From: a virus
Direction: 5' to 3' (one strand)
IMG/VR virus record: IMGVR_UViG_3300011114_000047
Location: 1 to 20,487 of that record
Length of the DNA stretch: 20,487 nt
Within the stretch, counting starts at the first letter, position 1; every line of letters starts with the position of its first letter. Below are positions 3,391-20,468 of this stretch, one piece after another. Made by a program: the position numbers and the translations under genes. The notes under the pieces were generated by a model. It was not told the origin of the DNA. It was given only the letters and a program-made list of their open reading frames with translations, and did no database searches.

Positions 3391-3398
3391 ATTGGCCC

Positions 3399-4567: not shown

Positions 4568-4580
4568 GGGTAAACCCTAG

Positions 4581-4829: not shown

Positions 4830-4831
4830 AA

Positions 4832-5020: not shown

Positions 5021-5030
5021 GATCGACTCC

Positions 5031-6355: not shown

Positions 6356-6356
6356 G

Positions 6357-7204: not shown

Positions 7205-7207
7205 GAT

Positions 7208-7570
7208 TTAGCACTTCCCGCCGTTTTTCATTTTGACCATCGCGCCCTTGGTCTTACCCTTGGTTTCGATGCCGCCACCTTTAGCCATCTTGGTCGCGCC
7301 GCCTTTTTTCATGCCCATCATCTGCTTTTTGTCAGTCGCCATGTCAGCTTTAGAGCCTTCTTGTGCGCCTTTTTTCTTAGCCATCATTGCCATAAAACCA
7401 GCGTTCATTTTGGAAGCCATAGTGTCACCACCTTTTGAAAATTTACGGCCTTTGTCGGCCTTGTTAAAGTCCTGTCCCACGGACTGTGGGATTCCTACTT
7501 TCTTGGCGAACGATGGCGAGTGAGCAATCGCAGCCATGAAATTGTGTTGCTTCTTACTAGTCGATGGCAT
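7208..7570 (-). CDS. DUF3008-like, Met/Lys/Gly-rich basic protein
   Basis: 120 residues, ATG at 7568-7570 behind GAGAGG, overlapping the upstream gene by 14 bases. Residues 1-45 (SKKQHNFMAAIAHSPSFAKKVG, VGQDFNKADKGRKF) match a short phage family I associate with DUF3008. Residues 51-120 are unusually rich in methionine, lysine and glycine (MAMMAKKKG, KKQMMGMKKGG) and include GGGIETKGKTKG at 98-109, a motif repeated in neighbouring proteins. A near-perfect Shine-Dalgarno sequence lies in front of Met51, so a shorter product may also be made. Function is unknown. Confidence 0.72.
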   Translation of the reverse strand: MPSTSKKQHNFMAAIAHSPSFAKKVGIPQSVGQDFNKADKGRKFSKGGDTMASKMNAGFMAMMAKKKGAQEGSKADMATDKKQMMGMKKGGATKMAKGGGIETKGKTKGAMVKMKNGGKC

Positions 7571-7799
7571 GATGCCCTCTCAAGTTGTCAATTTTGCGTT
7601 CTAGTCTGTCAAACCTATCGAGCAACTGCTGCATATCCGCACGGAACTCAGAGCGAGTGATATGGTCACGCGCCACTTCTTCACGAGTACGGTTCAGCAA
7701 AATACTGAGCCTGTCCAACTCATCAAACCTGCCTTTAAGCAAGAAACCCATAACCGCAACAATTGCGCTCAGGGCTGCGTTCCACAGCATCATTTCCAT
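7557..7799 (-). CDS. Small membrane protein with coiled coil (holin-accessory-like)
   Basis: 80 residues from ATG at 7797-7799, chosen because GGAAG lies 7 bases upstream and it begins just after the previous stop. An earlier in-frame ATG (7856) would overlap the upstream gene deeply. Residues 4-21 (MLWNAALSAIVAVMGFLL) form one hydrophobic helix. The rest is a heptad-rich amphipathic helix (FDELDRLSILLNRTREE, then QQLLDRFDRLERKIDNL). This architecture resembles XhlA-type holin-associated or other small phage membrane proteins. It is the only obvious membrane protein in the window, so it is the best lysis candidate, but a structural role is also possible. Confidence 0.65.
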   Translation of the reverse strand: MEMMLWNAALSAIVAVMGFLLKGRFDELDRLSILLNRTREEVARDHITRSEFRADMQQLLDRFDRLERKIDNLRGHHAID

Positions 7800-7800
7800 G

Positions 7801-8058
7801 TCAGCACTTCCATCTTGCCAATGACGCCGCCTTACGGGTAGGCTTACCCTTCTCATCCTTCATCGGCCCCGGCATACCGCTCATACGGGCGCAGAATGAG
7901 TCCTTGCGCTTACCGCCTTGAGGCTGTGGCGCTTTCAGGTTGCTGCCCGTTGCAGCGTTGTATTTGGCACGGCCTTTGGCAGTCAACCCCGCTCCCTTGG
8001 AGACGGGTAGCTTTTCACCGCGCCCAACCGAAAGAACGGGGCTTTTTTTCTTAGCCAT
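7801..8058 (-). CDS. DUF6321-like small basic protein
   Basis: 85 residues, very basic. The start overlaps the stop of the upstream gene by 8 bases (ATGGCTAA), so translation is coupled. Landmarks are GAGLTAKGRAKYNAATGSNLK (residues 22-42) and SFCARMSGMPGPMKDEKGKP followed by TRKAASLARWKC at the C-terminus. I recognise this as a conserved phage and environmental family (DUF6321-like, from memory). There are two cysteines: one in SFCARM and the terminal residue. Members are usually found among virion genes. No function is known to me. Confidence 0.75.
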   Translation of the reverse strand: MAKKKSPVLSVGRGEKLPVSKGAGLTAKGRAKYNAATGSNLKAPQPQGGKRKDSFCARMSGMPGPMKDEKGKPTRKAASLARWKC

Positions 8059-8557
8059 AGAAAATATTGCAAAAAGCTACGTTAGACAGGTACGCATAAA
8101 TGCCGTTAACAACAAGCACGCCGTCATCAGGAATAAAAGGTGCATTGTTAAATGTGTCCGATGCTGCTACGTCATACGACATCAACCAACGGCTTGCATA
8201 GGCCATTGCAGCGCCAGCAGTGATACTGCCAGAGTTAATGTCCGTAATGGTAAACGTACTTGAGTCGGTTACCGTGACAGGGTAGTTGCCATTGGTAGCC
8301 GTACCACCTGTACCAGCGGCAAAGTCAATGCCAATTACGTCGCCAGTTGTTAACCCATGCGCGGATTGCGTAACTGTTACGGTTGTACCAGAACGTCCAT
8401 AAGTTGCCGTAGTTACGGGGGCAGTAGTCGTATCAAATAATGCCACAAACCCAGCAGTAGATGTTCCGGTAAACGAAATGGCTTTTACACGATTACGCCC
8501 AAGAACAAGAAAGCCGCTACCGTTTAGGTGCGCTTGTTTTACAGGTGTCTGATTCAT
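8051..8557 (-). CDS. Beta-rich virion structural protein
   Basis: 168 residues from ATG at 8555-8557, with GGAG 7 bases upstream; a TTG two codons earlier is possible but less well placed. The middle carries SAHGLTTGDVIGIDFAAG and NGNYPVTVTDSSTFTIT (about residues 65-110), a beta-domain signature (HGL-x2-GD... NG-x-Y-x-V-x3-ST-F-T) common in phage structural proteins. There is no signal peptide. It sits early in the second transcription unit, after the capsid genes, suggesting a head decoration or neck protein. Confidence 0.7.
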   Translation of the reverse strand: MNQTPVKQAHLNGSGFLVLGRNRVKAISFTGTSTAGFVALFDTTTAPVTTATYGRSGTTVTVTQSAHGLTTGDVIGIDFAAGTGGTATNGNYPVTVTDSSTFTITDINSGSITAGAAMAYASRWLMSYDVAASDTFNNAPFIPDDGVLVVNGIYAYLSNVAFCNIFYG

Positions 8558-8577
8558 AATCAATCTCCTTTTATGCA

Positions 8578-8591
8578 GGGGCCGAAGCCCC
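8578..8591 (-). other. UUCG-loop hairpin between two structural genes
   Basis: On the minus strand GGGGC-TTCG-GCCCC lies between the stop at 8601 and the AAGGAG site before 8557. No T-run follows, so this is probably an mRNA-stability or partial-termination hairpin that tunes downstream expression. Confidence 0.55.
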
Positions 8592-8600
8592 CGAGATTAA

Positions 8601-9101
8601 TTAAGCAGACGCTGGGTTAGCAGAGCCGTCTGAATCACGGACAGTGTATGTGACCGACACAACTAGTGAACCAGCAGTTGCATCAGCCGTAGCCGCTGTA
8701 AACGTACCGTAGATGATTGCATCAGTTGTTCCTACGTTGTTGGTCTTAGACGCAACAGTAGCCGCAGCAATCGTTGCAGGAGAGACTTGCACCACTGCTG
8801 TTCCAGTGTTCAGCGTAGTCATATAAAAGTTGGCTGTTCCAGAGGTTCCAATAACAACGCCGCAATTACTAGCGCCAGTTAAAGCAGTAATTACGTAGAT
8901 ATCAAAACGCATAATTTGTGCGCCAGCAGGCAAAGTAAACATCTGCACTGCGGTAGGGGATGCCAAGATAGTGGCTGTGGCTACGGTATACGATTGAGAA
9001 ACAATCGTTGCACCCATATTGCGGATTGTGCCAGCGGTGGTGCCCGTAGTGTTTTTTACAGTGCCAAGCAGCCAAGGGCCGAGGTGAGTTGCGAATCCCA
9101 T
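8601..9101 (-). CDS. Beta-rich virion structural protein (first gene of second late unit)
   Basis: 166 residues, ATG preceded by AAGGA. The composition is Thr/Ala/Val/Ser rich with few charges. An N-terminal MGFATHLGPWLLGTVKNTTG leads into alternating strands such as MFTLPAGAQIMRFDIYVIT and SLVVSVTYTVRD. This looks like a small shell-decorating or fibre beta domain. It is the first gene after the promoter at 9191-9219, so it begins the second leftward transcript. Its exact place in the virion cannot be read from the sequence. Confidence 0.7.
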   Translation of the reverse strand: MGFATHLGPWLLGTVKNTTGTTAGTIRNMGATIVSQSYTVATATILASPTAVQMFTLPAGAQIMRFDIYVITALTGASNCGVVIGTSGTANFYMTTLNTGTAVVQVSPATIAAATVASKTNNVGTTDAIIYGTFTAATADATAGSLVVSVTYTVRDSDGSANPASA

Positions 9102-9126
9102 GATGATTTCCTTACATACAAGTGAA

Positions 9127-9169
9127 GTGCATCAATCGGTATGTCGTTTGCCGGGACAATTTGATGCAC
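9127..9169 (-). promoter_or_regulatory. Leader inverted repeat GTGCATCAA...TTGATGCAC
   Basis: A perfect 9-base inverted repeat (9127-9135 and 9161-9169) with 25 bases between, inside the 5' leader produced by the promoter at 9191-9219. It ends about 17 bases before the ribosome site of the gene at 8601-9101. It may form a leader stem-loop or bind a dimeric regulator. Confidence 0.5.
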
Positions 9170-9190
9170 CGGAAACCCCGGATTAAAAGC

Positions 9191-9219
9191 AATATAGCAC
9201 AGACAAACAAGAAGTGCAA
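9191..9219 (-). promoter_or_regulatory. Sigma70-type promoter for the second late unit
   Basis: On the minus strand TTGCAC (9214-9219) and TATATT (9191-9196) are separated by exactly 17 bases. Transcription would start near 9184, about 80 bases before the gene at 8601-9101. It lies just downstream of the capsid-unit terminator, as expected for an independent promoter. Confidence 0.72.
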
Positions 9220-9225
9220 CGGAAA

Positions 9226-9254
9226 ATAAAAAGGGAGCCGAAGCTCCCTTTTTT
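9226..9254 (-). terminator. Intrinsic terminator after the major capsid gene (bidirectional)
   Basis: GGGAGC (9233-9238), loop CGAA, GCTCCC (9243-9248), flanked by an A-rich run on the left and TTTTTT on the right. On the minus strand the loop reads TTCG and the stem is followed by TTTTTA, so leftward transcripts from the capsid gene end here. Rightward transcripts would end here as well. Confidence 0.85.
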
Positions 9255-9260
9255 GTAGCA

Positions 9261-9277
9261 AGCTAGCTAGGCTAGCT
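9261..9277. repeat. Inverted repeat AGCTAGC-TAG-GCTAGCT
   Basis: A perfect 7-base inverted repeat with a 3-base spacer, between the capsid stop codon (9288) and the terminator. It could extend or stabilise the mRNA 3' end, or be an operator. Function unknown. Confidence 0.6.
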
Positions 9278-9287
9278 GCGGATTCGA

Positions 9288-10220
9288 TTAAGACGAACCA
9301 GAGCTGCCCCACATTCCGAGCGGATCCGACCAGCCAAAGCTGTAGCGCTCACGAGACTTGTAACGGACGTTTCCAGTGTCGAAATCCCCGTCCATCGAGT
9401 TGTTCAATGGGGTACGCTCGAAGTGCTTCAGGCCGTTTGGCACGTCCGTGCAGAGGAACCAAGCGTTCGTGTCTGTCAAGAAGTGGTTAACGCAATAACC
9501 TTCTGGAATCGAACCGTTGTTCTTGATTGCGTTGATATCGTTGTCGGTAGTACCAACACGCAGGCTGGTTTCCAACAGACGGGTAGCAACGAATTGCAGA
9601 GCAGGCGGAACAATCATCTTGCGTGGCTTGGCGGCGATCAGCAGACCGCGCTCATCAACCCATGCAGCGATTTGAATCACAGCATTTTCCAGTGAGGTTT
9701 CGTTCAAGTCAACGCCAGTCGCTGGGCTGTTGTAGTTAACGCCGCCATTGACGAGTGGGTGACCCACACGAGAGCTGGAAGAATTAACGCCAAACAACGA
9801 TACACCGTCACCGCCGAGGTAAGAACCGCTAAAGCCGTTGTTCACGACAGAAGCTGCTTTAACCTGCTTGGTGTAGGCCATAGCGCGTGCCAGACCTTTG
9901 GTGTAACGAGCCGACAGACTGTCGTACAGGTTATCTTCGACTGCCTCTTCGGTAATCGAGAAGCCCAAAGCGATGGTCTCGTGGCTGTAACGTGCAGTGA
10001 AGGCTTCCTGCGCATTGTCATAAGCAATGGCTTGGCCCTCGTTCTTCACTGGTGCAGCACCGAAGCCGGACAGCTTGGTTTCTTCTTCAAACGAGCGTTC
10101 CGATTTCTCGGTCTCGTAGATTTCCTTGTGCTCTTCGCCGTAACGTGCGTACTCCAGACCAAACAAAGCGTTCAGACCGGGGAGCAGTTCTTTAAGTAGT
10201 TGTGCGCGTGAAATAGCCAT
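9288..10220 (-). CDS. Major capsid protein (HK97-fold type)
   Basis: 310 residues, ATG behind AAAGGAG. Landmarks are the N-terminal helix SRAQLLKELLPGLNALFGLEYAR, the extended-loop region SFEEETKLSGFGAAPVKNEGQ (about 43-63), the spine-helix segment GFSITEEAVEDNLYDSL followed by KGLARAMAYTKQVKAASVVN, and the P-domain-like PRKMIVPPALQFVATRLL. The C-terminus FGWSDPLGMWGSSGSS ends the shell domain. It resembles Mu-type and podoviral major head proteins. It forms the capsid lattice and is assembled on the scaffold encoded at 11325-12266. A terminator follows directly, as expected for a highly expressed last gene of a head unit. Confidence 0.88.
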   Translation of the reverse strand: MAISRAQLLKELLPGLNALFGLEYARYGEEHKEIYETEKSERSFEEETKLSGFGAAPVKNEGQAIAYDNAQEAFTARYSHETIALGFSITEEAVEDNLYDSLSARYTKGLARAMAYTKQVKAASVVNNGFSGSYLGGDGVSLFGVNSSSSRVGHPLVNGGVNYNSPATGVDLNETSLENAVIQIAAWVDERGLLIAAKPRKMIVPPALQFVATRLLETSLRVGTTDNDINAIKNNGSIPEGYCVNHFLTDTNAWFLCTDVPNGLKHFERTPLNNSMDGDFDTGNVRYKSRERYSFGWSDPLGMWGSSGSS

Positions 10221-10232
10221 GATTTAGCTCCT

Positions 10233-10868
10233 TTACAGACCAACAGCGTTGCTGTAAGAGTGGTATCCGGGGTTAAACTTCACCAGAATGTCAGTATATG
10301 CGTCACCCGCAACCGAGAAGCCCTGCATGTTAGGAAAACCAATAACGCGGAAAGCGCCAGTGGTTGTCTGTGCTGTGGCACTTACAGAAGTGGTTGAGTT
10401 GCCAGTGGTAGTACTACCTGTAGAGGTAGATTGCGCAGCACTCAAAATTACGTTAGCGCCCAAAGCAGCAAAAGTCAAACTGCCATCGGCTTGCACTTGG
10501 AAAACAGCGCGGTCATCATCAATGACGTATGCAGTAATCGCCGTGCCAGTAGGAGCAGCGTAGTTGGCGGGGTAGTACTGAGCGTAGATTACCTGACCTT
10601 GTGCATTCACGTACGAGCAACCAACAAAAACGCCAACTACACCAGTGTTAGCCGTACCAGTGGGGAAACCATTGGTTGTAGCATCAGCACCAGTCGCGGT
10701 AGCGATTTGCAAATAGCCTGTCGAAGCTACGTAGACCAACGAACCATTGAAAATGTTCGTGTTGTAACCAGCAGGGTTAATGGGAAACTGACGCGTGCTG
10801 CCCGAATAGGGTAGACCGCCCAGCTCATTTACGGCTTTAAAGCCATAGGGTGAAGCAGTTGATGCCAT
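10233..10868 (-). CDS. Probable head decoration/structural protein
   Basis: 211 residues, ATG behind AAAGGAG. The N-terminus ASPYGFKAVNELGGLPYSGSTRQ is one I recognise from many environmental phages directly upstream of the major capsid gene. The rest is beta-rich with a Ser/Thr-rich linker (STSTGSTTTGNSTTSVSAT, about residues 147-165) and a C-terminal AFRVIGFPNMQGFSVAGDAYTD. It is encoded 12 bases upstream of the capsid gene on the same transcript. A decoration or minor capsid role fits its composition and place; this is inference. Confidence 0.7.
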   Translation of the reverse strand: MASTASPYGFKAVNELGGLPYSGSTRQFPINPAGYNTNIFNGSLVYVASTGYLQIATATGADATTNGFPTGTANTGVVGVFVGCSYVNAQGQVIYAQYYPANYAAPTGTAITAYVIDDDRAVFQVQADGSLTFAALGANVILSAAQSTSTGSTTTGNSTTSVSATAQTTTGAFRVIGFPNMQGFSVAGDAYTDILVKFNPGYHSYSNAVGL

Positions 10869-10879
10869 AAGGCACTCCT

Positions 10880-11332
10880 TTATTTAGAACCTGAACCAAA
10901 TCCTTGTCCGCGACTGGCTGTTGACTTGCGGTCAGCAAACAGAGGCATCCGAGGGTCATTATTTCGCATGAAGTGATTGTCCACTGAGTCCATCTGGTTC
11001 TGCGCTTGCAGGTTGTAGTACTCGTCACGGGACTGTGCGCGTTCGGCAGACATCTTGCAAAGCATGAGGCCACCAATCTCGACATTTCCGGTCTTTTCAC
11101 TACCTGCCAGCATCAGTTCTGGATGGTCTACTGCCTTTACAGGCTCCCAGCCTTCGCGCATCTTGCGAGACACGTTGGTCGGGTTTGCCTCGCCCAGCAA
11201 ATGGGTCATCACCCAACGATACACATAACCCGGCTCAGGAGTCGGGTCCGGTAACGCCGATGGTGGCACATACACAGAACGAGCAGTTTTGTCGCGTGAT
11301 ACCAGATCACGAGGGGTGCGATTTTCAGCCAT
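10880..11332 (-). CDS. Conserved phage protein between scaffold and capsid genes (unknown)
   Basis: 150 residues. The start is the ATG at 11330-11332, which overlaps the scaffold stop by 8 bases (ATGGCTGA); an earlier ATG would overlap deeply. Charged N-terminus (MAENRTPRDLVSRDKTARS), then YVYRWVMTHLLGEANPTNVSRKMREGWEPVKAVDHPEL in the middle, a short hydrophobic VEIGGLMLCKM segment and a flexible C-terminus (ASRGQGFGSGSK). There is no membrane segment or known catalytic motif. Coupling to the scaffold gene suggests a role in procapsid assembly or as a minor capsid component. Confidence 0.72.
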   Translation of the reverse strand: MAENRTPRDLVSRDKTARSVYVPPSALPDPTPEPGYVYRWVMTHLLGEANPTNVSRKMREGWEPVKAVDHPELMLAGSEKTGNVEIGGLMLCKMSAERAQSRDEYYNLQAQNQMDSVDNHFMRNNDPRMPLFADRKSTASRGQGFGSGSK

Positions 11333-12266
11333 TATTTTTCTCCAATTTTGCAACTTCAACAGCATATTGCTGCGGGGTTAATCCGTACTTTTTTGCCAAC
11401 GCAATTTGCGTGGGGGTGAGTTGAATTTTTTTTGCGCCCGAAGAACGCGCTGCGGGAGCAACAACCGAGGTTGGCCGTTTTGGAGAGTCTGATGACTTCC
11501 GATCTTCTGTTTCCCCAAAAACTTCAGGGAACTTAGACTTCACGCGTGCGTCAATGCGCTCGTAGTATTCGTCACTTCGCGGGTCAACCCCGTTATTGAC
11601 TAGATTTTGGTGCAGCCCTAGTGCAAAGCTGGTAACTTCTTCAAACCCGTTTGACCCGAACCACTGGTTTTTTGCTTGCCAGCGCAAGGTTTTTTCGTCA
11701 GGTTGCACCTGTTGGGGTGCCGGTTGCCTCGTTTGTACATCATATTCTTCCGTCTGTAAAGGGGGTGGACGAAAGTTTTTTGCTGCCGCAATCTTCATTT
11801 TTGCTTCTGTCAGCGCTTCTTGGGCAGCAATAATGCCGTCCGTGTCAAACGACTCCTGCGCTACCTTGTAATCACGGCGGGCTTTGTCCAGCTCGGCTTC
11901 CGCAGCACTCTCAGCCATCTTGTTGTACTGCTGCGTGCCCGTGTCCACATACTGCTTGAGCCTTGTATTCTCGTTCTGCATGTGTTGAGCGATGCGCTCC
12001 AGCTCTTGCTTTTCACGCTGTATGGCTTCTTTAGCCCTGCGCTCGTCGTGGCGGGCGTGTGTCAACTCCTTGATACGCTCTTGAGCACCCTTGGTGTAGG
12101 TCTCAATTTCGGCATCGGTGGGGTCAAGTACTTCCCGGTCTAACGGCTTGCGCCCTCGGTCTCGTTCGGGGGTGTCATCGACAATCTCAATTTCGATCTC
12201 GTCGTCTTGTTGGTTGACTACAACAGTGGTTTCCTGTTCGTCGGGGAATTTGTATGCGTCTGCCAT
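11325..12266 (-). CDS. Capsid scaffolding protein
   Basis: 313 residues, ATG behind AAAGGAG. An acidic N-terminus (residues 16-35, including IEIEIVD at 24-30) is followed by a long charged helical, coiled-coil region (about 55-160, with REKQELERIAQHMQNENTRL), a Pro/Gln-rich linker (PPPLQTEE, PAPQQVQPDEK), and a C-terminal helical segment with LTPTQIALAKKYGLTPQQYA near 285-304. This layout is typical of podoviral scaffolds, in which the C-terminal helices bind the coat protein. The gene lies between the portal and capsid genes as expected. It should be absent from mature virions. Confidence 0.82.
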   Translation of the reverse strand: MADAYKFPDEQETTVVVNQQDDEIEIEIVDDTPERDRGRKPLDREVLDPTDAEIETYTKGAQERIKELTHARHDERRAKEAIQREKQELERIAQHMQNENTRLKQYVDTGTQQYNKMAESAAEAELDKARRDYKVAQESFDTDGIIAAQEALTEAKMKIAAAKNFRPPPLQTEEYDVQTRQPAPQQVQPDEKTLRWQAKNQWFGSNGFEEVTSFALGLHQNLVNNGVDPRSDEYYERIDARVKSKFPEVFGETEDRKSSDSPKRPTSVVAPAARSSGAKKIQLTPTQIALAKKYGLTPQQYAVEVAKLEKNNG

Positions 12267-12277
12267 TTAAAGCTCCT

Positions 12278-12712
12278 TTAAGCGCGGGTTAACCCACGGG
12301 GGTCTTGGACAACTGCGTCCACCTGATCGTCATTTATCAAACGGAATTCTTTTCCGTAGATTTTGAAGCGCGTACCTGAATACGTACGCACGAGCACAAA
12401 GTCACCTGCCTTGCACCACGGACCTGCCGGGAACTTGGTGGTGTCGCTGTACGCGTCTGGGCCTACTTTTAAGACAAACAGCACCGTGGTGGCGTGTTCT
12501 TCTTGCCGCATGAACTGTCCGGCTTTAACAATAGACGAGTTCTCAAACGTCTCTACAACGTCAGGCACAGCGCACAGGATTTTCCAGCCCGATGGGTCGG
12601 GTAGCTGGCGTGCTTTTTCGTCGTCGGTGGGAGGGTCTACTTCTGGGGCTTCGGCTAAATGAGCCGTTTCGGGCAGCACGAAGCTGTTGGGTTCAAGGCT
12701 AAGTTCACTCAT
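12278..12712 (-). CDS. GroES-like co-chaperonin (Cpn10 fold)
   Basis: 144 residues from ATG at 12710-12712, chosen because GGAAG lies 6 bases upstream; it overlaps the previous stop by 8 bases (ATGAGTGA). After a roughly 40-residue acidic, Pro-rich extension, residues 42-136 follow the GroES pattern: WKILCAVPDVVET as first strand, a mobile-loop-like ENSSIVKAGQF (57-67), VLFVLKVGPDAY aligning with the VLAVG strand, then CKAGDFVLVRTYSGTRF aligning with the VKVGDIVIF strand, KIYGKEFRLINDDQVDAVV at the end. T4 gp31 is the precedent: a phage GroES that adapts host GroEL to fold the capsid protein. No GroEL gene is visible. The position between portal and scaffold fits a capsid-folding role. Confidence 0.78.
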   Translation of the reverse strand: MSELSLEPNSFVLPETAHLAEAPEVDPPTDDEKARQLPDPSGWKILCAVPDVVETFENSSIVKAGQFMRQEEHATTVLFVLKVGPDAYSDTTKFPAGPWCKAGDFVLVRTYSGTRFKIYGKEFRLINDDQVDAVVQDPRGLTRA

Positions 12713-12899
12713 CTGATTCTTCCACTTTCTTAGCAAGGTCGAGTAAGTAACGCTCTGCGATAGCCAGACCTTGGATGATTCCGCAGAGTTTTTGGTATTG
12801 ATCGAACGACCGACAGGCTCCCCCAGCGAGGTCGTCTGTGTAGTTGTTCATATCGGTGCGTATTTGTTCGCGCAATACGCGTGCGAAGTCTTGAATCAT
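12705..12899 (-). CDS. Small helical protein of unknown function
   Basis: 64 residues, ATG at 12897-12899 following the portal stop by 9 bases, with a weak ribosome site (AAGGG about 12 bases upstream). The protein appears all-helical: MIQDFARVLREQIRTDMNNY, then FDQYQKLCGIIQGLAIAERYLLDLAKKVEES. Two cysteines are present. It overlaps the GroES-like gene by 8 bases, implying coupled expression. I do not recognise a functional family. A small assembly helper or portal-associated peptide is possible but unsupported. Confidence 0.65.
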   Translation of the reverse strand: MIQDFARVLREQIRTDMNNYTDDLAGGACRSFDQYQKLCGIIQGLAIAERYLLDLAKKVEESDE

Positions 12900-12908
12900 T
12901 TAATTAAC

Positions 12909-15374
12909 TTACCCTTTCGGTGGTTGGTTTTTCATTCCCGCCTGTTGGCGGCTTCTTGCGATATCGATGCCCATGCGAACACCGTCTCGTTCTTGGCTGG
13001 CTTGCAGTGTCTTGTCGGCTTGCGTGGCCTGCTGGCCCGCCTTAAACCCATCAAGCTGCATCTTGCCTTCCAGCGCTTGTTTCTTCAGCTCCAGCTCATC
13101 CGCCTTAGTGGCGGCATCAATCTGAAGTTTCTTTTCCTTGAGGTCAACTTCGCGTTCCTTGATCTTCATGTCCTGCTGCTGGAGCTGGATAACTGGGTCT
13201 TGGGCTTGCTGCTGCGCCTGCTGCTGCGCCGCTTGGGCTTGGCTCTGCTGGAGAACCTGCGCCGCCGCCTGCGCCATCATTCCCGACAACGCCAACTCAA
13301 TCTGCGGCGGGAGCTTCTCGTCTTCGGGCGGCAACGGCATACCCAACTGCTGCTCAATCTTCTGGCGGTAGCCAAAGCCAACGTGCTCAGCAATGTGCGC
13401 CATCATCGCGCCCTGAAGCATCTGCGCCTTGGGGTTTTGTCCCACCAACTGCATGATGATGGGGTCTTGCATTGCAGCCATGTGTACTTTGATGTGCGAC
13501 TCGTGGTCTTGGTACATGAACGCCTTGACAGGTGCGCCCTTGAGAATCTCCATGTTCTCCGTCACTGGGTCGCGTGGCTTCTGGTCGTCCGGCAGGGGCA
13601 CCAGCTTGTCTGCATTCTTAATACCCAGTACCTCAAGCATCTGGCGGTGCAGGTACGGCTGGTCGTAAATGGTCGGAGACATCTGCGCCATCTGGATGAC
13701 GGCTTGGTACTGCACCACACGCTGGCTCATGGTGGCCGCGTTGGGGTCCGATACAGGAATAATGTCAACGTGGTTGTAGTCCTCGGCCTTGGCTCTACGT
13801 CCGCCTTTTTCTGGCTCGTAGTCGTAGTCTGGGTCGGTGTAGTCGCGTATCAAGCCCGCCAACAGGCGTAGCTCTTGTTTGAAGCTGTAGTGCAGTCGTG
13901 CCTGAACTGCGGACATCACTTTAAGCTGGCGCTCCAGCAGGGCCAGTGTGGTGCCTACGGGCGCGTTAGCCGACATGTCGGCTATCTTCATATCCGCAGT
14001 AGCCGCGAACCTGCGGCCCTCTTCAACGATGGTTCCTAACAGACCCGCCAAGACCTGACTTGGCTCTTTATACGGCAGGGGCAGAATACTGTCGCGCAGC
14101 GTGCCCGAGCCAATGTCTACATCCCGGAACTCGCCGGGGGCAATCGGAGTGTCATCACCCTTAATCCGAAGTCCCCGAGACTTGAGACCTCCGGGGAGGT
14201 TGGACAGGGTGCCCGCATCGACGAGTTGTCGCATGATGCTGGTGGCTGACTTGGCGTAGCCGCCGATGAGGTGGAACAGCCCAAAGCCGTAAGCCCCAAA
14301 GCCGGGGATGTATTGGTAGTGTACGAAGTGCTGGCGCTTGAGGTGTAAATCATCACTCTCAAGCCAGTTGCGTCGAATGGACAAGACATCATTAGTTCCT
14401 TTAATTAGGGTTACTACGTAGGGAAGCGCAATGCCCGTAACTTCCCCGGCTTCATCCTTATCCTCATATCCCGGCAGGTCCAGCTCTACGTGGCACTCCA
14501 TCAGGATATAGCGATCATCGTTCAAATCACTGAAGCCCGTCTCTTTGTCCTTGGCCTTCTCAATGTTGGTCTGCTCCCGGCTCGGGTCACCCAGCTCGAT
14601 ATCGCGATAAAAGCCCGCTTGCTGGAGCTTGACGATCTCGTTCTTGGTCTTACGCATGACGTGCGTCACGCGGTAGCACGTATCCAAGTCAGTCGTGCCG
14701 TACGGCAAGATGATGTCCTCGGCGGGCACAAACATGGACACCTGCCGACCCAGTGAGGGGTCGTAGTACACCTTCTTGAATGCCGAACCCGTGGCAGGCA
14801 GTGACCACAACATGCGTTCATGCTCGGGGCGGAACTCGCGCATCACGTCCGTCAGCTCGTAGTTCATGTCCGACTCAACCCGCTGCGCAGCTTGCTGCTT
14901 CTCAGGGGTCTCTTTACCAAGAATCTTGGTGCGCACCGGGCCTGCGGCTGGGAACGTCTCGGTGATCGTCTCACTCTGAAACCGCACAACGGCTTCGGTA
15001 ATCATGGGGTGGAACACGCCAGACGCTCCGTTCCACGGCTCCGTGCGCTCTTCAATCTGCAAGCCCAGTAGTTTCAAGCCCTCGGTGTAGGCTTTCTCCC
15101 AGTCCTTGCGGGAGTTCCTGTCGTTCTCAATGTCCCCAGCAAGGTCGCCAGCCATCGTCTCTATGGCGCTTGCGTCCATGTCGTCGGCCAGATTGGCATC
15201 AAAGTCGTCTTTAGCGTCGGCTTCAACCTTGGCAAGCTCCAGCTCAAAGCCCGGACCGTGGATGCTGACCCCTTCTGGGTCTACGATCTCAATCTCAATG
15301 CCCTGCTCATCTGCTGCATAGTCGTCTATGCCTTGGGGCTGTTGGTAGAGTGCTTTGTCGATGTTCGTTGCCAT
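12909..15374 (-). CDS. Portal protein (P22 gp1-like)
   Basis: 821 residues, ATG with AAGGA 5 bases upstream; that site overlaps the terminase stop. The N-terminus is acidic and contains IEIEIVD at 26-32. The core has ERTEPWNGASGVFHPMITEAVVRFQSETI, the LWSLPATGSAFKKVYYDP segment, FVPAEDIILPYGTTDLDTCYRVTHVM, HYQYIPGFGAYGFGLFHLIGG and ALLERQLKVMSAVQARLHYSFKQELRLLAGL, which fit the P22-type portal fold. The C-terminal 150 residues are Gln/Ala-rich and then a long charged helix, like the barrel extension of P22. The dodecameric portal is the DNA entry vertex, and it docks the terminase and the gp4-like adaptor. Confidence 0.88.
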   Translation of the reverse strand: MATNIDKALYQQPQGIDDYAADEQGIEIEIVDPEGVSIHGPGFELELAKVEADAKDDFDANLADDMDASAIETMAGDLAGDIENDRNSRKDWEKAYTEGLKLLGLQIEERTEPWNGASGVFHPMITEAVVRFQSETITETFPAAGPVRTKILGKETPEKQQAAQRVESDMNYELTDVMREFRPEHERMLWSLPATGSAFKKVYYDPSLGRQVSMFVPAEDIILPYGTTDLDTCYRVTHVMRKTKNEIVKLQQAGFYRDIELGDPSREQTNIEKAKDKETGFSDLNDDRYILMECHVELDLPGYEDKDEAGEVTGIALPYVVTLIKGTNDVLSIRRNWLESDDLHLKRQHFVHYQYIPGFGAYGFGLFHLIGGYAKSATSIMRQLVDAGTLSNLPGGLKSRGLRIKGDDTPIAPGEFRDVDIGSGTLRDSILPLPYKEPSQVLAGLLGTIVEEGRRFAATADMKIADMSANAPVGTTLALLERQLKVMSAVQARLHYSFKQELRLLAGLIRDYTDPDYDYEPEKGGRRAKAEDYNHVDIIPVSDPNAATMSQRVVQYQAVIQMAQMSPTIYDQPYLHRQMLEVLGIKNADKLVPLPDDQKPRDPVTENMEILKGAPVKAFMYQDHESHIKVHMAAMQDPIIMQLVGQNPKAQMLQGAMMAHIAEHVGFGYRQKIEQQLGMPLPPEDEKLPPQIELALSGMMAQAAAQVLQQSQAQAAQQQAQQQAQDPVIQLQQQDMKIKEREVDLKEKKLQIDAATKADELELKKQALEGKMQLDGFKAGQQATQADKTLQASQERDGVRMGIDIARSRQQAGMKNQPPKG

Positions 15375-15382
15375 GTTGTTCC

Positions 15383-16918
15383 TTAGTAGTAGGCCGCTTT
15401 GCGTCCTCTGTAAATCCTATCGTCTTTCTCGTCGGTATCCAGCGAGATAAACCCACCTTGCCTGAAGCGTAGCAGCGCCTGACTGGTTGTGTCCACGTAG
15501 TCGTCGTTCTCGCCTACCGGGAACGCCGCTACTTCTTCAATGACTTCTCGCGCCCAGCGGGTATCCGGTGCCCAGACAATACCGGACGTGAACAGGTCTG
15601 CAATCGCGTTGACCCGCACCATCTTATCGTTTCCCCGGCTCGGTGTAAATTCTTGTACGGGGATGCCCATCGCCCGTAGCTCTTGGATGAGCGGACCCCC
15701 AGCGGCCTTTTTCTCCACAATAAACGCGTCTGGGTCCCACTCTTTCCAGTGCTTGAAGGCGATCACCTTCAGCTCGGGGAACGCCATCCGGTCTTTAAAC
15801 GCGTCCAGCAGCATGAGCTGCGGGGCATTGTTTTCTTCTTCGTTGTACCAAACGCCCCAAGTCGTGCAGGCCGAATAGTCGGAGGTGCTCTTGGTCTCGT
15901 GCGCCGTGTCCCAGCTCTGGATGATGTACTCACAAGGCGGCGGGTCGTCGTGGAGCCAGATGCGCCAACTCTTTCGGCTGATGATGGCCGAAACGTCCGA
16001 GGTCGGCTGCTGCATGTACTGCGCGTTCCAATACCTCGGGTCCATCGACGACTTGGCGGACTTCAAAGACTCCAGAGGCCACTGCTCGGGCCAAAGTGAC
16101 TTCTCGTTTTCCGTGCCTTCGTTGAGGATGGCAGGCAGCTCCACGATCTCCCAGCGCGGTGAGTCGGGGTTCTTGACTTGGTAGTCGATCAGCCGCCCGG
16201 TCAGGTCGAGCGGCCCCCAGCGGGTCATCACAACAATAATGGCACCGTTGGGCATCAAGCGCTGGAGCGGGCCTGTCTGGAACCACGACCAAGCCGTGTC
16301 AAACGCTAGACGACTGTTGGCTTTAACGTCTTGTTCTGAGTGGGGGTCGTCGATCATGAACAGGTCAGCGCCCCGGCCTGCCAAGGCTCCACCCACACCA
16401 GCGGCGTAATACTGACCACCGTCAGCCGTTGACCACTTGCCGGAGGCTTTCTGGTCTTGCGCGAGTTTGGTTCCGGGGAACACGGCGTTGTAGTCCTCGT
16501 CCTCCAGCATGTTCCTGACCCGGCGACCAAAGTCTTCCGACAAGGACGCGGTGTGCGTGCCCATGATAATTTTCTTATTAGGGTAATTACCTAGGAAGAA
16601 TGCCGGGAACAAATAACTGCTGAACTCGGACTTACCCATCCTCGGCGCGATATTAATAATGACGCGTTTCTTTTTGCCGTCGATCACGTCTTGGAAAATC
16701 TTGGACAGCTTGCGATGATGGGGGCCAACCTTGAAGCCGGGGTAAACGCGCCGAGCAAAGTCGATCATGTTGGTACGCGAGTTCTTAAGCGACATCCTGC
16801 GATCGCGCTCTTCCAGCATCTCCATCAGCTCAAGCTTGTTCTTGACCGTCATCGTCGGCAACGCAGCGCGTATGGCCGCGATCTCTTCTGCCTTCAGGTT
16901 GAGTGCGTCAAGCTTCAT
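15383..16918 (-). CDS. Terminase large subunit
   Basis: 511 residues. The ATG overlaps the previous stop by 11 bases, with little ribosome site, so translation is coupled. The ATPase half carries Walker A as APRMGKSE (91-98), Walker B as DLFMIDD (185-191), and the coupling motif VMTRW (230-234). The nuclease half has the acidic residues in QSWDTAHE (Asp337), FIVEKKAAGG (Glu402) and DDYVDTTSQAL (Asp473/Asp476). The length is normal for the family. It is the motor and nuclease that packages DNA through the portal encoded just downstream. The basic PRMGKS version of Walker A is frequent in phage terminases. Confidence 0.93.
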   Translation of the reverse strand: MKLDALNLKAEEIAAIRAALPTMTVKNKLELMEMLEERDRRMSLKNSRTNMIDFARRVYPGFKVGPHHRKLSKIFQDVIDGKKKRVIINIAPRMGKSEFSSYLFPAFFLGNYPNKKIIMGTHTASLSEDFGRRVRNMLEDEDYNAVFPGTKLAQDQKASGKWSTADGGQYYAAGVGGALAGRGADLFMIDDPHSEQDVKANSRLAFDTAWSWFQTGPLQRLMPNGAIIVVMTRWGPLDLTGRLIDYQVKNPDSPRWEIVELPAILNEGTENEKSLWPEQWPLESLKSAKSSMDPRYWNAQYMQQPTSDVSAIISRKSWRIWLHDDPPPCEYIIQSWDTAHETKSTSDYSACTTWGVWYNEEENNAPQLMLLDAFKDRMAFPELKVIAFKHWKEWDPDAFIVEKKAAGGPLIQELRAMGIPVQEFTPSRGNDKMVRVNAIADLFTSGIVWAPDTRWAREVIEEVAAFPVGENDDYVDTTSQALLRFRQGGFISLDTDEKDDRIYRGRKAAYY

Positions 16919-17615
16919 CGGCTTCTGATGTTAGTGAGTGCTCACTCTGTTTTAACGGTTCTACGTCCGTTATGTCGGGTTTGATCTCGCCGGAAGTTGC
17001 CTCTACATCGACCACGTTGAGCAGCGTGTCGAGCTTGTCTTGGAGCTTCTTGTCGATCTCGGCGTCGGTCATGTCCGTTTTGGTGACCGATACGCGGTCC
17101 GTGAACAGCGCCACTTCCGTGACCCGGCCCAGCATCTCGATGGCCTTGAGCCGAATCCGAGCGTCTGGGTGGTTGGTCTCCTCAATGATTTTGGCGACCG
17201 CCATTCCGCGCATCTGTTTGGCCTGCTCGACGAATTCCCAGTCATAGGCTGACAGCATGGTGACGAGGTGACGCACTGACTCAGGGGTCTTAAGCAGCGT
17301 CAACTGCGTTTTGGTGTCGTTGGGTGCCGTGTTGTTAGTTAACGCAGCGAAGACGGTACGTGCGGCCTTGGCTTCGGCTTCCTGAAGAATCTTGTTGTCG
17401 TCGTCAACACCAAGCTGCTCTAACCACTTCGTTGTATTGACCTGTGCGTTCAGCGTTTGCTCGGGCGTGGCTTTATCCAGACCGGAAACGTCTTTGCCTG
17501 TGGCCTCTACCACCGGGGGTTCAAAAGAAATCAGATGCTCAAACATGCGCGTAGTACCTTGCGGACTCGGAGCCTGTAATGTACACTGCTTTTTAGGTAG
17601 TGTCTGTGTTTTCAC
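16908..17615 (-). CDS. Putative terminase small subunit
   Basis: 235 residues from GTG at 17613-17615, chosen because a strong GGAGGAG lies 11 bases upstream. A longer frame from ATG 17672 would begin inside a terminator hairpin, and ATG at 17544-17546 (MFEHLISF) is another possibility. The central part is helical: VRHLVTMLSAYDWEFVEQAKQM, KIIEETNHPDARIRLKAIEMLGRVTEVALFTDRV, then an acidic C-terminus with MTDAEIDKKLQDKLDTLLNVVD. No clear helix-turn-helix can be read. The assignment rests on its place directly before the large terminase, with overlapping genes, and on memory of similar genes in environmental phages. Confidence 0.6.
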   Translation of the reverse strand: MKTQTLPKKQCTLQAPSPQGTTRMFEHLISFEPPVVEATGKDVSGLDKATPEQTLNAQVNTTKWLEQLGVDDDNKILQEAEAKAARTVFAALTNNTAPNDTKTQLTLLKTPESVRHLVTMLSAYDWEFVEQAKQMRGMAVAKIIEETNHPDARIRLKAIEMLGRVTEVALFTDRVSVTKTDMTDAEIDKKLQDKLDTLLNVVDVEATSGEIKPDITDVEPLKQSEHSLTSEADEA

Positions 17616-17654
17616 AGTCGTTGCTTCTCCTCCGATGGCTGAAAATCCATCTTT

Positions 17655-17679
17655 GCCCGGTTCGCCGGGCATTTTTTTG
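17655..17679 (+). terminator. Rightward intrinsic terminator with no rightward gene in front
   Basis: GCCCGG-TTCG-CCGGGC (17655-17670) followed by ATTTTTTT. The preceding GATGG..CCATC (17634-17651) could form a second small stem. The element stops rightward transcription, yet every gene to its left is leftward. Confidence 0.75.
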
Positions 17680-17687
17680 TGTGTATT

Positions 17688-17703
17688 TGTCTACTGTTAG
17701 ACA
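17688..17703. promoter_or_regulatory. Inverted repeat TGTCTA-CTGT-TAGACA
   Basis: A perfect 6-base inverted repeat with a 4-base spacer. The half TTAGACA recurs at 17825-17831. This is a possible operator in the divergent control region. Confidence 0.45.
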
Positions 17704-18009
17704 GAATTTAGCTTAATTTTTGCAAAATTTTGTGGGGTATGGGCTAATTTTTGGGTGCCGGGGGGTGTTTCTGTAGGTGCTTTGTTTGCAATTTAAGGCT
17801 AATTTGGGTGTGATTTATGGATGATTAGACAAAAATTGAGATGATGGGAGGGGAATAGTGTTCATGTGGGACGGCCCTAGCTTGCCCTGTATTGCTTGGT
17901 GGGGGGCGGGTGGGGTTCGCCATACCCGTTTACGCCCCTATAGGCGCGCGAATTTACCCCATTCTTACAATAGAGTTAGCGGTTAGGGGGTTCCTAGCCG
18001 CATAACCAA

Positions 18010-18026
18010 CGGGTCACAGTGACCCG
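18010..18026. repeat. 17-bp palindrome P1 (A-centred)
   Basis: CGGGTCAC-A-GTGACCCG, perfect 8-base arms. It lies 19 bases upstream of the first rightward start codon. See P2 to P5 and the related finding. Confidence 0.85.
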
Positions 18027-18045
18027 AACCTAAGAGGTAATTCAA

Positions 18046-18426
18046 ATGTCAACAGGAAACAAAGCACTGGCTTTCCAAACCCTCAACACCTTTGCAGATA
18101 GCAGGGTCGCACTCATCAGGGGGATGCGGGATGCGGGGTACACGTTGGAGACGGCACGCGGTGTCGTCATCGAATGGGCTTGCGGCAAGGTAGGTTCTGG
18201 CATCAAGGGGTTCAAGGTCAACGAGGAGACGGGCAAGGTGTCGCTCATTACGAGCCATGCCAAGTACGAGAAAGCCAAGACCACGGTGCGCGACACCATG
18301 CTGATGCTGGCGGGGACAACCCGCCGCCAGTCCAGTAGCAAGGAGATTGACCTTGTTGCCGAGGCTCTCAAGGCATACGGCAAGCTCAATGCCGCGCAGA
18401 AGCGCAAGTTCTTGGCTTCTGTTTGA
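18046..18426 (+). CDS. Early-region protein of unknown function (126 residues)
   Basis: 126 residues, ATG with GAGGT 7 bases upstream. The protein is basic and helical: NKALAFQTLNTFADSRVALIRGM, then YTLETARGVVIEWACGKVG, and a Lys/Arg-rich C-terminus (LKAYGKLNAAQKRKFLASV). A helix-turn-helix in residues 22-50 is possible but not convincing. It is the first rightward gene, divergent from the structural unit, and is bracketed by two palindromes (18010-18026 and 18433-18449), followed by a likely terminator. This could be a regulatory or DNA-binding protein acting on those palindromes, but nothing in the sequence proves it. Confidence 0.75.
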   Translation: MSTGNKALAFQTLNTFADSRVALIRGMRDAGYTLETARGVVIEWACGKVGSGIKGFKVNEETGKVSLITSHAKYEKAKTTVRDTMLMLAGTTRRQSSSKEIDLVAEALKAYGKLNAAQKRKFLASV

Positions 18427-18432
18427 TTCTTT

Positions 18433-18449
18433 CGGGTCACGGTGACCCG
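18433..18449. repeat. 17-bp palindrome P2 (G-centred)
   Basis: CGGGTCAC-G-GTGACCCG, perfect 8-base arms, beginning 6 bases after the stop codon of the gene at 18046-18426 and ahead of its likely terminator. Confidence 0.85.
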
Positions 18450-18460
18450 TTTTCTGTCCG

Positions 18461-18499
18461 CCGCCCTGCCAATCGGGTTGGGGCGGTATTCTTTTCTTT
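18461..18499 (+). terminator. Likely terminator after the first rightward gene
   Basis: CCGCCC (18461-18466) pairs with GGGCGG (18481-18486), with extra pairing of CAA and TTG inside, followed by T-rich TATTCTTTTCTTT. It lies between palindromes P2 and P3. Confidence 0.6.
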
Positions 18500-18501
18500 G
18501 T

Positions 18502-18518
18502 CTAGTCACTGTGACCCG
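18502..18518. repeat. 17-bp palindrome P3 (T-centred, imperfect)
   Basis: CTAGTCAC-T-GTGACCCG: the right arm is intact and the left arm differs at two bases. It precedes the leader of the two-gene unit 18617-19187. Its right flank AAAACGGT is also found just after P5. Confidence 0.8.
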
Positions 18519-18535
18519 AAAACGGTTCTACCCTG

Positions 18536-18594
18536 AAGCACAGCACGCTGTGCTTTGGAGTGCGACCAGCACGACCGCACCGGACGGTATCCGG
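18536..18594 (+). promoter_or_regulatory. Two-hairpin leader of the 18617 gene
   Basis: AAGCACAG-CACG-CTGTGCTT (18536-18555) and CCGGA-CGGTA-TCCGG (18580-18594) are perfect short stems between P3 and the ribosome site at about 18605. No T-run follows either stem, so they may control mRNA stability or translation. Confidence 0.5.
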
Positions 18595-18616
18595 AATCCT
18601 TAATGGAGATAGCAAT

Positions 18617-18955
18617 ATGTTCAAACTCAACCTGTTTACCCGGCTAACCCACCGCTACGCGGACGGCTGGCGACACCTCGACGACGAGGAATTTACTGGC
18701 ACGGTCAAGGTGCTGGGCATCACACACGAGACCGAGGACGGGGGCTACGATGACGGCGGGACTGCCCGCTTCCGGGTGGTTGCGCCCTCGGCGCTCAAGG
18801 GAGCAGACCTGTCCCAGTCCATACGCCAGACGCTCAGCGGCAGTGGATGCCGTCATGAGTACGACTGCTGCGGCTGCGCCTCGACACGGGCTAGCGTCAA
18901 GCGTGTCAGCCCCAGAGAGTACGCCGTCAAAGTTTCCATCAGCTACAACTACTAG
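18617..18955 (+). CDS. Cys-rich early protein of unknown function (112 residues)
   Basis: 112 residues from ATG at 18617-18619, chosen because GGAG lies 8 bases upstream; the in-frame upstream ATG (18560) lies in a hairpin-rich leader. The N-terminal half has FTGTVKVLGITHETEDGGYDDGGTARFRVVAPSAL. The C-terminal half contains CRHEYDCCGCASTRA, a cluster of four cysteines with a histidine that could bind zinc, then a beta segment YAVKVSISYNY. I recall similar proteins from other proteobacterial phages but no function. It forms a two-gene unit with the next gene and follows a leader with two hairpins. Confidence 0.75.
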   Translation: MFKLNLFTRLTHRYADGWRHLDDEEFTGTVKVLGITHETEDGGYDDGGTARFRVVAPSALKGADLSQSIRQTLSGSGCRHEYDCCGCASTRASVKRVSPREYAVKVSISYNY

Positions 18956-18965
18956 GAGAAATGAA

Positions 18966-19187
18966 ATGAGAAAAGCAACCCGGACAATCGTCCACGTAGG
19001 CACTATCCAAACCCCGTCAGGGGCATGGAATCTGTACGACCAGTACCCCACCAGCAGGCGCGACTTCAAGATAACCTCGGCGGTTCCTGTGGGCAAGCCC
19101 ACGCAGGGTATCGCCTTCACTTGTGACCTCGCCTTCGAGCGCTGGCTGGCTGAGCGCATGACCCCGACTCAACGGGTGTTGTTCTGA
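18966..19187 (+). CDS. Small early protein of unknown function (73 residues)
   Basis: 73 residues from ATG at 18966-18968. The AGGAGA ribosome site overlaps the stop codon of the previous gene (TAGGAGA), so the two are co-translated. A two-codon ATG AAA TGA sits at 18961 between them. The protein is basic with VHVGTIQTPSGAWNLYDQYPTSRRDF, then AVPVGKPTQGIAFTCDLAFERWLAERM. No known motif is recognised. A G-centred palindrome starts 4 bases after the stop codon. Confidence 0.7.
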   Translation: MRKATRTIVHVGTIQTPSGAWNLYDQYPTSRRDFKITSAVPVGKPTQGIAFTCDLAFERWLAERMTPTQRVLF

Positions 19188-19191
19188 AATT

Positions 19192-19208
19192 CGGGTCACG
19201 GTGACCCG
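19192..19208. repeat. 17-bp palindrome P4 (G-centred)
   Basis: CGGGTCAC-G-GTGACCCG, perfect arms, starting 4 bases after the stop codon of the gene at 18966-19187. Its left flank TTC matches that of P2. Confidence 0.85.
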
Positions 19209-19239
19209 CTTGCAGCGCGGAACAACCGAAATGCAAACG

Positions 19240-19305
19240 TGGTATATCAGTCGGGCAAGAAGTGTTGTATAAAAACCACTGTCCGGGGTGTCCACTGATA
19301 TACCA
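19240..19305. repeat. 12-bp perfect inverted repeat TGGTATATCAGT/ACTGATATACCA
   Basis: Arms at 19240-19251 and 19294-19305 with 42 bases between. Related sequences TGGTATTTAAAT (19562-19573) and TGGTATATAG (19614-19623) lie on the other side of the dyad. Confidence 0.75.
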
Positions 19306-19578
19306 GATTCATTTTCAAATACGGACACGCGCAACCCGCATGGATGCTAACGTCTGGGGGTTTAGTGTCCGTACTACTACTAAATATTTTTATTATTATA
19401 TATAGTATAGAGAGTGTATATATTTTTTCTTCCGCGCTTGTTTTCTTTCTTGCTTTTAAGCTTTGGCTAGCTCCTTCTGTATGGCGAACAGTACTTCGGA
19501 CACAAACTTCGAAAAGCTAGTATCCATGCGGGTTGCGCGTGTCCAAAAACGGGAATAGAATTGGTATTTAAATGGACA
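19289..19578. repeat. Large imperfect dyad centred near 19433
   Basis: Core arms 19323-19349 and 19518-19544 match as inverse complements at 26 of 27 positions. Outside them, TGTCC at 19289-19293 and GGACA at 19574-19578 lie exactly 29 bases from each core arm, with partial similarity between. Inside, GTGTCCG (19365-19371) and CGGACAC (19497-19503) also correspond. The centre is AT-rich and not palindromic. Confidence 0.8.
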
Positions 19579-19624
19579 GTTCAAAAAAGCTGGACACTTT
19601 CGTAACCCAACTCTGGTATATAGC

Positions 19625-20464
19625 ATGAAATACCCCAAAAGCTTCTACAGTATGTCGGTCGCTGCCATGCGCAGCTACCTCATAAAACGCAACGTGCCCC
19701 CCGAGCTTATCGATGGGCTAATCACCGAAGAGCAGACCAGACGCGATGAGACGCGCCCCTTGCGCAAGAAGCGTGAGCAGCACATCAGGCTATGGCATCA
19801 GATAATCGACCCGGCTGTGGCCGAGCTACGCAACGTGCAGCATATGCTGCGACTACCCCTGCTGTACCCTACACCTGAACGCACCGCTGCGCTCGAAGCC
19901 TATGCCAAGGTGCTCGAACTGCTCATCGACAAGCTCAAGCAGAACGTGGACAAGATAAAGCGCAGCGATGCCGATACCGCTGACGACCTCCTGACCCCTA
20001 GCAGGCAGGCTAGCAAACCCACACGGGCATTCCCACACGGCAAGCCCAACGGGGGAACGCATTGGGTGGACTACGTGCCGCCCAACATCGTCCGGGAGAT
20101 AAACGCCCTGTTCGACTCGATTCCCCGAGTAAAGGGGGTCAAGCGCAAGTACCCCTTCCTTGTCGTACTTGACCGAGCCACCAGCGCTAAACGTAGGCAA
20201 GCCCTGACCGAGCGTACACAAAACGAGCTGACCCACGTCGAGCGTCTCCTCGCGGTCGAGCTTGCCGATGCTAGGTTGACCGACACCCATGTGTTCAAGC
20301 AGCAGGAGATAGCTGACCTGCGCATCCAGATAAGCAAGATGCAGTACGCCCTGCACATCATCAGCCTGCTGCCCCCGAACGCCTTCATACCCCCGACATG
20401 GCACGGGGTGATGACCCCACGCACAGCACCGGGCGAGTTCCCTATCAACAAAGGGTCACAGTGA
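19625..20464 (+). CDS. Early protein of unknown function (279 residues), next to a dyad element
   Basis: 279 residues, starting with ATG at 19625; no Shine-Dalgarno site is visible and TATATA lies just 2 bases upstream of the ATG, so translation start is uncertain (a later ATG at 19652 also lacks a site). The protein is highly charged and mostly helical, with long helices near residues 38-72, 80-112 and 190-240. The middle has a KPNGGTHWVDYVPPNIVREINALF segment. No enzyme motif is recognised. The stop codon TGA is embedded in the palindrome at 20453-20467. Its place next to the dyad makes an origin- or site-binding role worth testing, but there is no direct evidence. Confidence 0.7.
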   Translation: MKYPKSFYSMSVAAMRSYLIKRNVPPELIDGLITEEQTRRDETRPLRKKREQHIRLWHQIIDPAVAELRNVQHMLRLPLLYPTPERTAALEAYAKVLELLIDKLKQNVDKIKRSDADTADDLLTPSRQASKPTRAFPHGKPNGGTHWVDYVPPNIVREINALFDSIPRVKGVKRKYPFLVVLDRATSAKRRQALTERTQNELTHVERLLAVELADARLTDTHVFKQQEIADLRIQISKMQYALHIISLLPPNAFIPPTWHGVMTPRTAPGEFPINKGSQ

Positions 20465-20468
20465 CCCG
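20453..20468. repeat. Palindrome P5 (A-centred) over a stop codon
   Basis: GGGTCAC-A-GTGACCC with a right-hand G; the outer left base is A instead of C. The TGA stop of the gene at 19625-20464 lies inside it (20462-20464). AAAACGGT follows at 20474-20481, as after P3. Confidence 0.85.

Follow-up and report, generated by a model that had tools for sequence, protein, structure and literature searches.

In the present study, a set of short palindromes and the gene c2, which two of them bracket, were analysed in a stretch of viral DNA, IMG/VR record IMGVR_UViG_3300011114_000047 (20,487 bases; hereafter the window), and in its relatives. Taken as a whole, the results make it likely that c2 binds DNA as a dimer and regulates its own gene, through one operator at its promoter and a series of stoperator-like sites in the early operon. 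This reading is based on conservation, placement, residue-base covariation and helical phasing, all computed here; from these we infer physical binding, the dimer, the roadblock and the direction of regulation. c2, a previously undescribed phage protein, is a predicted regulator that most likely docks at the palindromes flanking its own gene.

Palindromic sites in the window and its relatives

Scanning the window with the pattern CGGGTCACNGTGACCCG, allowing up to 3 mismatches, returned 5 palindromes against 0.05 expected from shuffles, and 5 were reached in 0 of 100 shuffles. These are the five near-identical palindromes listed in a first-pass annotation of the same DNA, and all were confirmed; the 20453 given there for the last one is the start of a 15-mer, the site itself starting at 20452. 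The fixed core common to the sites is GGGTCA-NNN-TGACCC. The same annotation had placed the palindromes at gene borders and outside the structural region, and both statements hold in the window, where all five lie at borders and the pattern scan found none in positions 1-18009. Four of them are called S1 to S4 here; the fifth, P3 (at 18502), is limited to the window and a close sister, G001 (IMGVR 3300011115_000173; 61,002 bases). G001 repeats the sites of the window at the same spacing and carries a sixth at its position 21846, just past the end of the window. All six are situated between 18.2 and 21.9 kb, in the first 3.7 kb of its rightward block. Two checks had been proposed with the annotation, on the rest of the genome and on related phages: the remainder of the 61-kb G001 genome contains no sites, and their conservation in related phages is strong. 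The gene order of G001 runs from leftward structural genes, beginning with a TerS-like gene and the terminase large subunit (TerL), across a divergent intergenic region to a rightward block that starts at the 126-amino-acid gene c2 and reaches large replication-like genes. Gene calls come from a custom coding model, for which the same genomes provided the training data, and the rightward region is termed early from gene order.

The exact motif was observed in 95 IMG/VR stretches, in most of which several copies occur at spacings of a few hundred bases. An independent ASCERTAINMENT, in which the query to IMG/VR was the family of the c2 protein and not the motif, brought extra relatives with sites CGGGTCAGNCTGACCCG in the same places, the pair beside the centre being switched symmetrically, and deeper relatives were reached via a second motif and a broader c2 profile. 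In this deeper clade, c2 shares roughly 32-45% identity with its clade A counterparts; the core GGGTCA-NNN-TGACCC persists, with a free inner pair. The motif search and the separate c2-protein search gave 90 distinct c2 loci. Together these span 909 kb and contain 378 sites with at most 1 core mismatch, whereas the reversed sequence contains 2; of the 378, 0 fall in the 459 kb lying beyond -0.6/+8 kb of c2. Loci with at least 2 sites have a common layout: the leftward TerL and TerS-like genes, S1, rightward c2, S2, small open reading frames (ORFs), S3, 300-550 nt without genes, rightward c4, S4, variable genes, S5, rightward c5 and c7, and S6. Of 87 testable loci, 75 have S1 and 83 have S2, the latter 2-7 bp past the c2 stop in nearly all; sites surround c2 in nearly all members of the c2-profile family, including those found by the protein and not by the motif. 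The sites were not described in the literature searched, and the relatives DSL-LC04 and HTVC023P (first 50 kb) have no palindrome at 3 or more copies and no c2.

A host or chromosomal role of the motif was considered and rejected: in bacterial contigs the exact motif is, among the matches listed, apparently no commoner than chance, these matches being single copies in mostly high-GC genomes. An apparent cyanobacterial excess was traced to the coding part of a CRP-like regulator gene (Arg-Val-Thr-Val-Thr-Arg) and was judged a coincidence of codon use; the matches L107, L149, L168, L170, L171, L207 and L212 belong to freshwater Synechococcus/Cyanobium and have the same 17-mer.

Residue 94 of c2 and the inner base pair

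Variation in the pair of bases beside the centre of the palindrome goes with a single residue of c2. At loci where residue 94 is Arg, the inner pair is CNG at 154 of 204 sites and never GNC, the other sites having the pair changed on one side and once on both. At loci with His94, GNC is found at 15 of 17 sites and CNG at none, and a deep clade with other residues at this position has mixed inner pairs. Column 94 alone in c2 separates the His loci from the Arg loci (4 versus 49-51), a separating column being one with a residue that every His locus shares and no Arg locus has. Such columns number 0 of 516 in TerL and 0 of 315 in the TerS-like c1, and a control with random sets of four divergent Arg loci gave a shared column of this kind in 0 of 3000. 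The His loci are spread over four places in the TerL tree and need 4 changes, a single clade being rejected by the approximately unbiased (AU) test (p-AU 0.0076), and the site type changes at the same places as His94. Mainly because of this covariation, c2 is named here as the presumed binder of the sites; the dimeric DNA-binding protein suggested in the first-pass annotation is supported by inference. That annotation had also divided the sites into two classes by the centre base, a division that does not extend to the relatives, where A/T and G/C centres number 44:41 after c2 and 111:102 at later sites, a bias to A/T being seen only at S1 (68:9). Judging from the sequences, the relevant distinction is whether the pair beside the centre is C..G or G..C, and this pair tracks residue 94.

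Searches of Pfam, PHROGs, NCBIfam, the PDB (with both sequence and fold), a viral fold library and named phages gave no match for c2 itself. Its predicted model is helical with a beta-hairpin (pLDDT 86), and residue 94 is located in a low-confidence segment immediately following helix 74-89, which carries the invariant residues Y74, K78, T79, R82 and D83. This position would fit an arm beside a recognition helix.

The promoter site, the gene-border sites and rival explanations

A -10-like box (N-A-Y-A-A/C-T-R-G-A) lies approximately 56-85 bp 5' of c2 in nearly all loci, with S1 downstream of it in the clade of the window and upstream in most relatives. In the S1-upstream relatives, the distances from S1 start to -10 start are 34, 44-45, 54-57, 64-66 and 76 bp, for which the best period is 10.5 bp (vector length R 0.92; p 2e-4 versus uniform distances, over 14 lineages that are not fully independent, with L405 misplaced by the automatic scan). 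A -10 box follows 77% of S1 copies, 1% of S2 and <1% of later sites, compared with 1% in the control. Because of this phasing and linkage, S1 is read as a predicted promoter-linked operator that would act from one face of the helix; the other sites differ and do not behave in this way. In the clade of the window, S1 is now in the leader, between promoter and start codon, and a poor match at window position 17912 (4 mismatches), with the -10 box 54 bp downstream of it, may be what remains of an older S1 position.

The remaining sites are associated with the ends of genes. As the first-pass annotation had claimed, they track gene borders: 239 of 298 non-S1 sites fall in the interval from -14 to +20 nt around a stop codon, compared with 6.6% when positions are random, with 41 of these 239 providing the stop codon itself and 3 of the 298 deep inside genes. 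Approximately half of the gene borders of the region carry a site, and the siteless borders are tight (median gap 11 bp versus 96 bp). In 80 of 84 loci, the 8 nt after S2 include at least 5 T, and S2 therefore resembles an intrinsic terminator, the combination of a GC-rich hairpin and a T-tract being found at S2 and not at most other sites.

The palindromes fold as hairpins (-9.8 kcal/mol), and this folding, together with the T-tract at S2, the position of sites after stop codons and a second hairpin in many leaders, would also suit an explanation at the RNA level, according to which the palindromes are mRNA hairpins serving as terminators, RNase sites or 5'/3' stabilisers and no DNA-binding protein is involved. 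We consider this explanation unlikely. The arms GGGTCA/TGACCC are nearly invariant over deep divergence, whereas RNA stems would drift with compensating changes, and the inner pair, which would fall in a 3-nt loop, switches with the c2 residue at every site that a genome has. In addition, most non-S2 sites lack a T-tract, and S1 is helically phased to the promoter and is outside the transcript in most phages.

Slightly less probable still is the explanation that another protein binds the sites, either a host transcription factor or a phage protein such as c58 or c4, and that c2 merely travels along with them. The candidate c58 is a clear helix-turn-helix (HTH) protein present in most of these genomes, and the sites border c4 as well as c2. 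However, the helix-turn-helix of c58, LGVTRQTVYNWF, is identical in C-type and G-type genomes, and c58 was rejected as the binder with its recognition helix unchanged between site types. The two separating columns of c4 are highly variable positions for which only 2 His loci were available; c4, with a coiled-coil-like model and no covariation of note, was also rejected. A host factor would not be expected to follow a phage residue, and it is c2 that S1 and S2 specifically flank. With regard to the sites as possible promoters for a single-subunit phage RNA polymerase, the family PF00940 gave no match in a search in which control genomes were silent too.

The S4-S5 interval, from c4 to c5, contains 0-10 variable genes across loci; 5 of 5 loci without cargo have a single site, and 21 of 31 loci with cargo have two, one after c4 and one before c5. 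Because the gene content of this interval varies in this manner, the repeats may also serve as exchange points. The cassettes proposed in the first-pass annotation stand in part, with variable cargo between sites and no general left/right pairing. That the sites are in essence recombination hot spots or linkers of mobile gene cassettes, with a secondary regulatory look, would agree with this cargo and with the same sequence following the G001 sites 20651 and 21846, but it is very improbable, leaving the residue-base covariation and the promoter phasing unexplained, with no recombinase found adjoining the sites and exchange at repeats being a possible by-product of dispersed operators.

Proposed mechanism, neighbouring features and known systems

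Herein, we propose a mechanism in which c2, which opens the rightward (early) region and has a site on either side, would encode the protein that binds the palindromes. First, a c2 dimer would occupy GGGTCA-NNN-TGACCC, residue 94 of each subunit reading the pair beside the centre. Second, c2 at S1 would act on its own promoter from one helix face, resulting in autoregulation. Third, from S2 onward, bound c2 would most likely obstruct elongating RNA polymerase at unit borders, a putative role modelled on the stoperators of mycobacteriophage L5 (PMC9283540) and assigned to these sites because they lie directly after stop codons and no promoter was found with them; S2 is also an intrinsic-terminator-like hairpin. 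The dispersed operators of stoperator type anticipated in the first-pass annotation are supported, and the sites are located in promoters and in short intergenic spaces. The net effect would be a timed or dosed shutdown of the early region.

Several observations weigh against this proposal. Clade members with Ser or Val as residue 94 retain mostly C..G. The tree of c2 residues 1-88 does not reject a single origin of the His class (p 0.69), which makes the number of independent switches uncertain, and a sign test on 3 pairs gave p 0.25; on either tree, the scattered sites changed together with one residue of one protein. The model of c2 matches no known DNA-binding fold in the PDB and viral fold searches, and residues 93-97 are its least confident stretch. 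S1 lies downstream of the promoter in the clade of the window, and the phasing evidence therefore comes from relatives. Both S1 and S2 are missing from the c2 loci L393, L307, L055 and L061, and the genomes are known from metagenomes alone.

The proposal offers a likely function and a testable binding code for a family without a match in Pfam, PHROGs, NCBIfam or the named phages searched, which is found in a widespread group of uncultured phages of ~60 kb. The relation between residue 94 and the inner pair yields a prediction for a single mutation, and the family supplies small natural regulators that differ in the sites they would prefer. The results also suggest more than one origin of operator/stoperator control, in this case with palindromic sites and in phages without a detected tyrosine integrase. 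To a bolder extension we give somewhat less than an even chance: c2 would found a new family of small DNA-binding proteins of phages with a one-residue specificity switch readable from sequence, in a compact operator-plus-roadblock system where one element can serve as binding site, as stop codon (S4) and as terminator (S2), and where the repeats are also joints for the swapping of early cassettes.

The features of the window are collected in Table 1.

Table 1. Palindromic sites, genes and promoter element located in the window
Feature	Position	Strand	Description
Terminase large subunit (TerL)	15383..16918	-	Left boundary of the divergent region
c1	16908..17672	-	Conserved TerL neighbour; TerS-like by position and reading of the sequence
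Conserved -10 box of c2 promoter	17966..17974	+	TACAATAGA
S1 (P1)	18010..18026	.	CGGGTCACAGTGACCCG; 20 bp 5' of c2 start codon
c2	18046..18426	+	126 amino acids; proposed site-binding regulator; Arg94 in GTTRR
S2 (P2)	18433..18449	.	Centre G; directly 3' of c2 stop; followed by TTTTCT
P3	18502..18518	.	CTAGTCACTGTGACCCG; 2 mismatches; degraded or extra copy
112-amino-acid ORF	18617..18955	+	phrog_20892; between P3 and S3
73-amino-acid ORF	18966..19187	+	Ends just before S3
S3 (P4)	19192..19208	.	Centre G; directly 3' of the stop of the 73-amino-acid ORF, then non-coding gap
c4	19625..20464	+	Conserved 279-amino-acid all-helical protein; ended by S4
S4 (P5)	20452..20468	.	AGGGTCACAGTGACCCG; 1 mismatch; its TGA is the c4 stop codon

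The 112-amino-acid ORF matches phrog_20892 at 8.6e-25, and its neighbours have no database relatives; c1 has no database match, and c4 has no relatives among named phages. Window positions 19209-19624, ahead of c4, comprise ~415 bp without a convincing gene. The middle is AT-rich, GTGTCC/GGACAC words are numerous, and there are two inverted repeats, one with long, imperfect arms (19289-19363 / 19504-19578) and one that is perfect over 12 bp. In relatives, too, a gap of about this length lies ahead of c4. This gap is a possible replication origin or structured RNA, and an Rfam scan of the region gave nothing above threshold. A second GC-rich hairpin occurs after many sites, its sequence varying among phages with pairing kept, and is followed by the ribosome-binding site of the next gene; examples are the leaders after S2 and S4 (window 18450-18500; G001 20667-20724). 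In G001, the same leader, AAACCAAAACGGTCAGCAGCCTGCC..., follows two sites (20651-20725 and 21846-21920), and the repeat there outlasts the palindrome. The gene c58 (G001 37019-37345) and its relatives encode conserved proteins of 92-108 amino acids that weakly resemble transcription regulators and small subunits of terminases; a very large early protein is encoded immediately downstream. Across from the end of the early block is a single leftward gene of 3021 codons (G001 40564-49629).

Several known systems resemble the one proposed here. The cI and Cro proteins of phage lambda are HTH-type dimers that bind 17-bp operators arranged in tandem over one promoter. The odd-centred 17-bp palindrome would suit a dimer of this type, and autoregulation is proposed for c2 also, but the present sites are single copies at successive gene borders, and c2 is unrelated to these proteins so far as sequence and fold searches show. 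Class I activators such as CRP act from positions -61.5, -72.5 and -82.5, and S1 in the relatives is similarly helix-phased upstream of the -10 box, whereas most sites here are not promoter-linked and c2 has no homology to CRP. T4-type phages carry mobile regulatory (promoter/stem-loop) cassettes, which are likewise short repeated intergenic elements beside variable early genes; in contrast, the element described here is a palindrome resembling a protein site, and most copies lack a promoter.

The closest comparison is with mycobacteriophage L5 and other cluster A phages, in which an immunity repressor acts through several dispersed operators or stoperators (PMC9283540). The L5 sites are asymmetric 13-bp sequences in fixed orientation, more than 20 of them across the genome, with one class at a promoter and one in short intergenic spaces, initiation and elongation being the proposed targets (PMC9283540). 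The present system would likewise consist of one phage protein with a promoter site and short-intergenic sites. However, its sites are 17-bp palindromes and not oriented asymmetric 13-mers, approximately 5-7 of them occupy 3-10 kb near c2 and are not genome-wide, and c2, with 126 amino acids, has no detectable HTH or Stoperator domain, both of which are present in the L5-type repressor. Of the integration functions that would also accompany a lambda cI-like immunity repressor of a temperate phage, a tyrosine integrase was not found in 28 records, some of them fragments, in a search in which 14 of 14 controls were positive and which did not cover serine integrases. By analogy, the c2 system would work like a stoperator system yet is not a member of the L5 family, because it departs from that family in the protein itself, in the symmetry and the spread of its sites and in integration genes.

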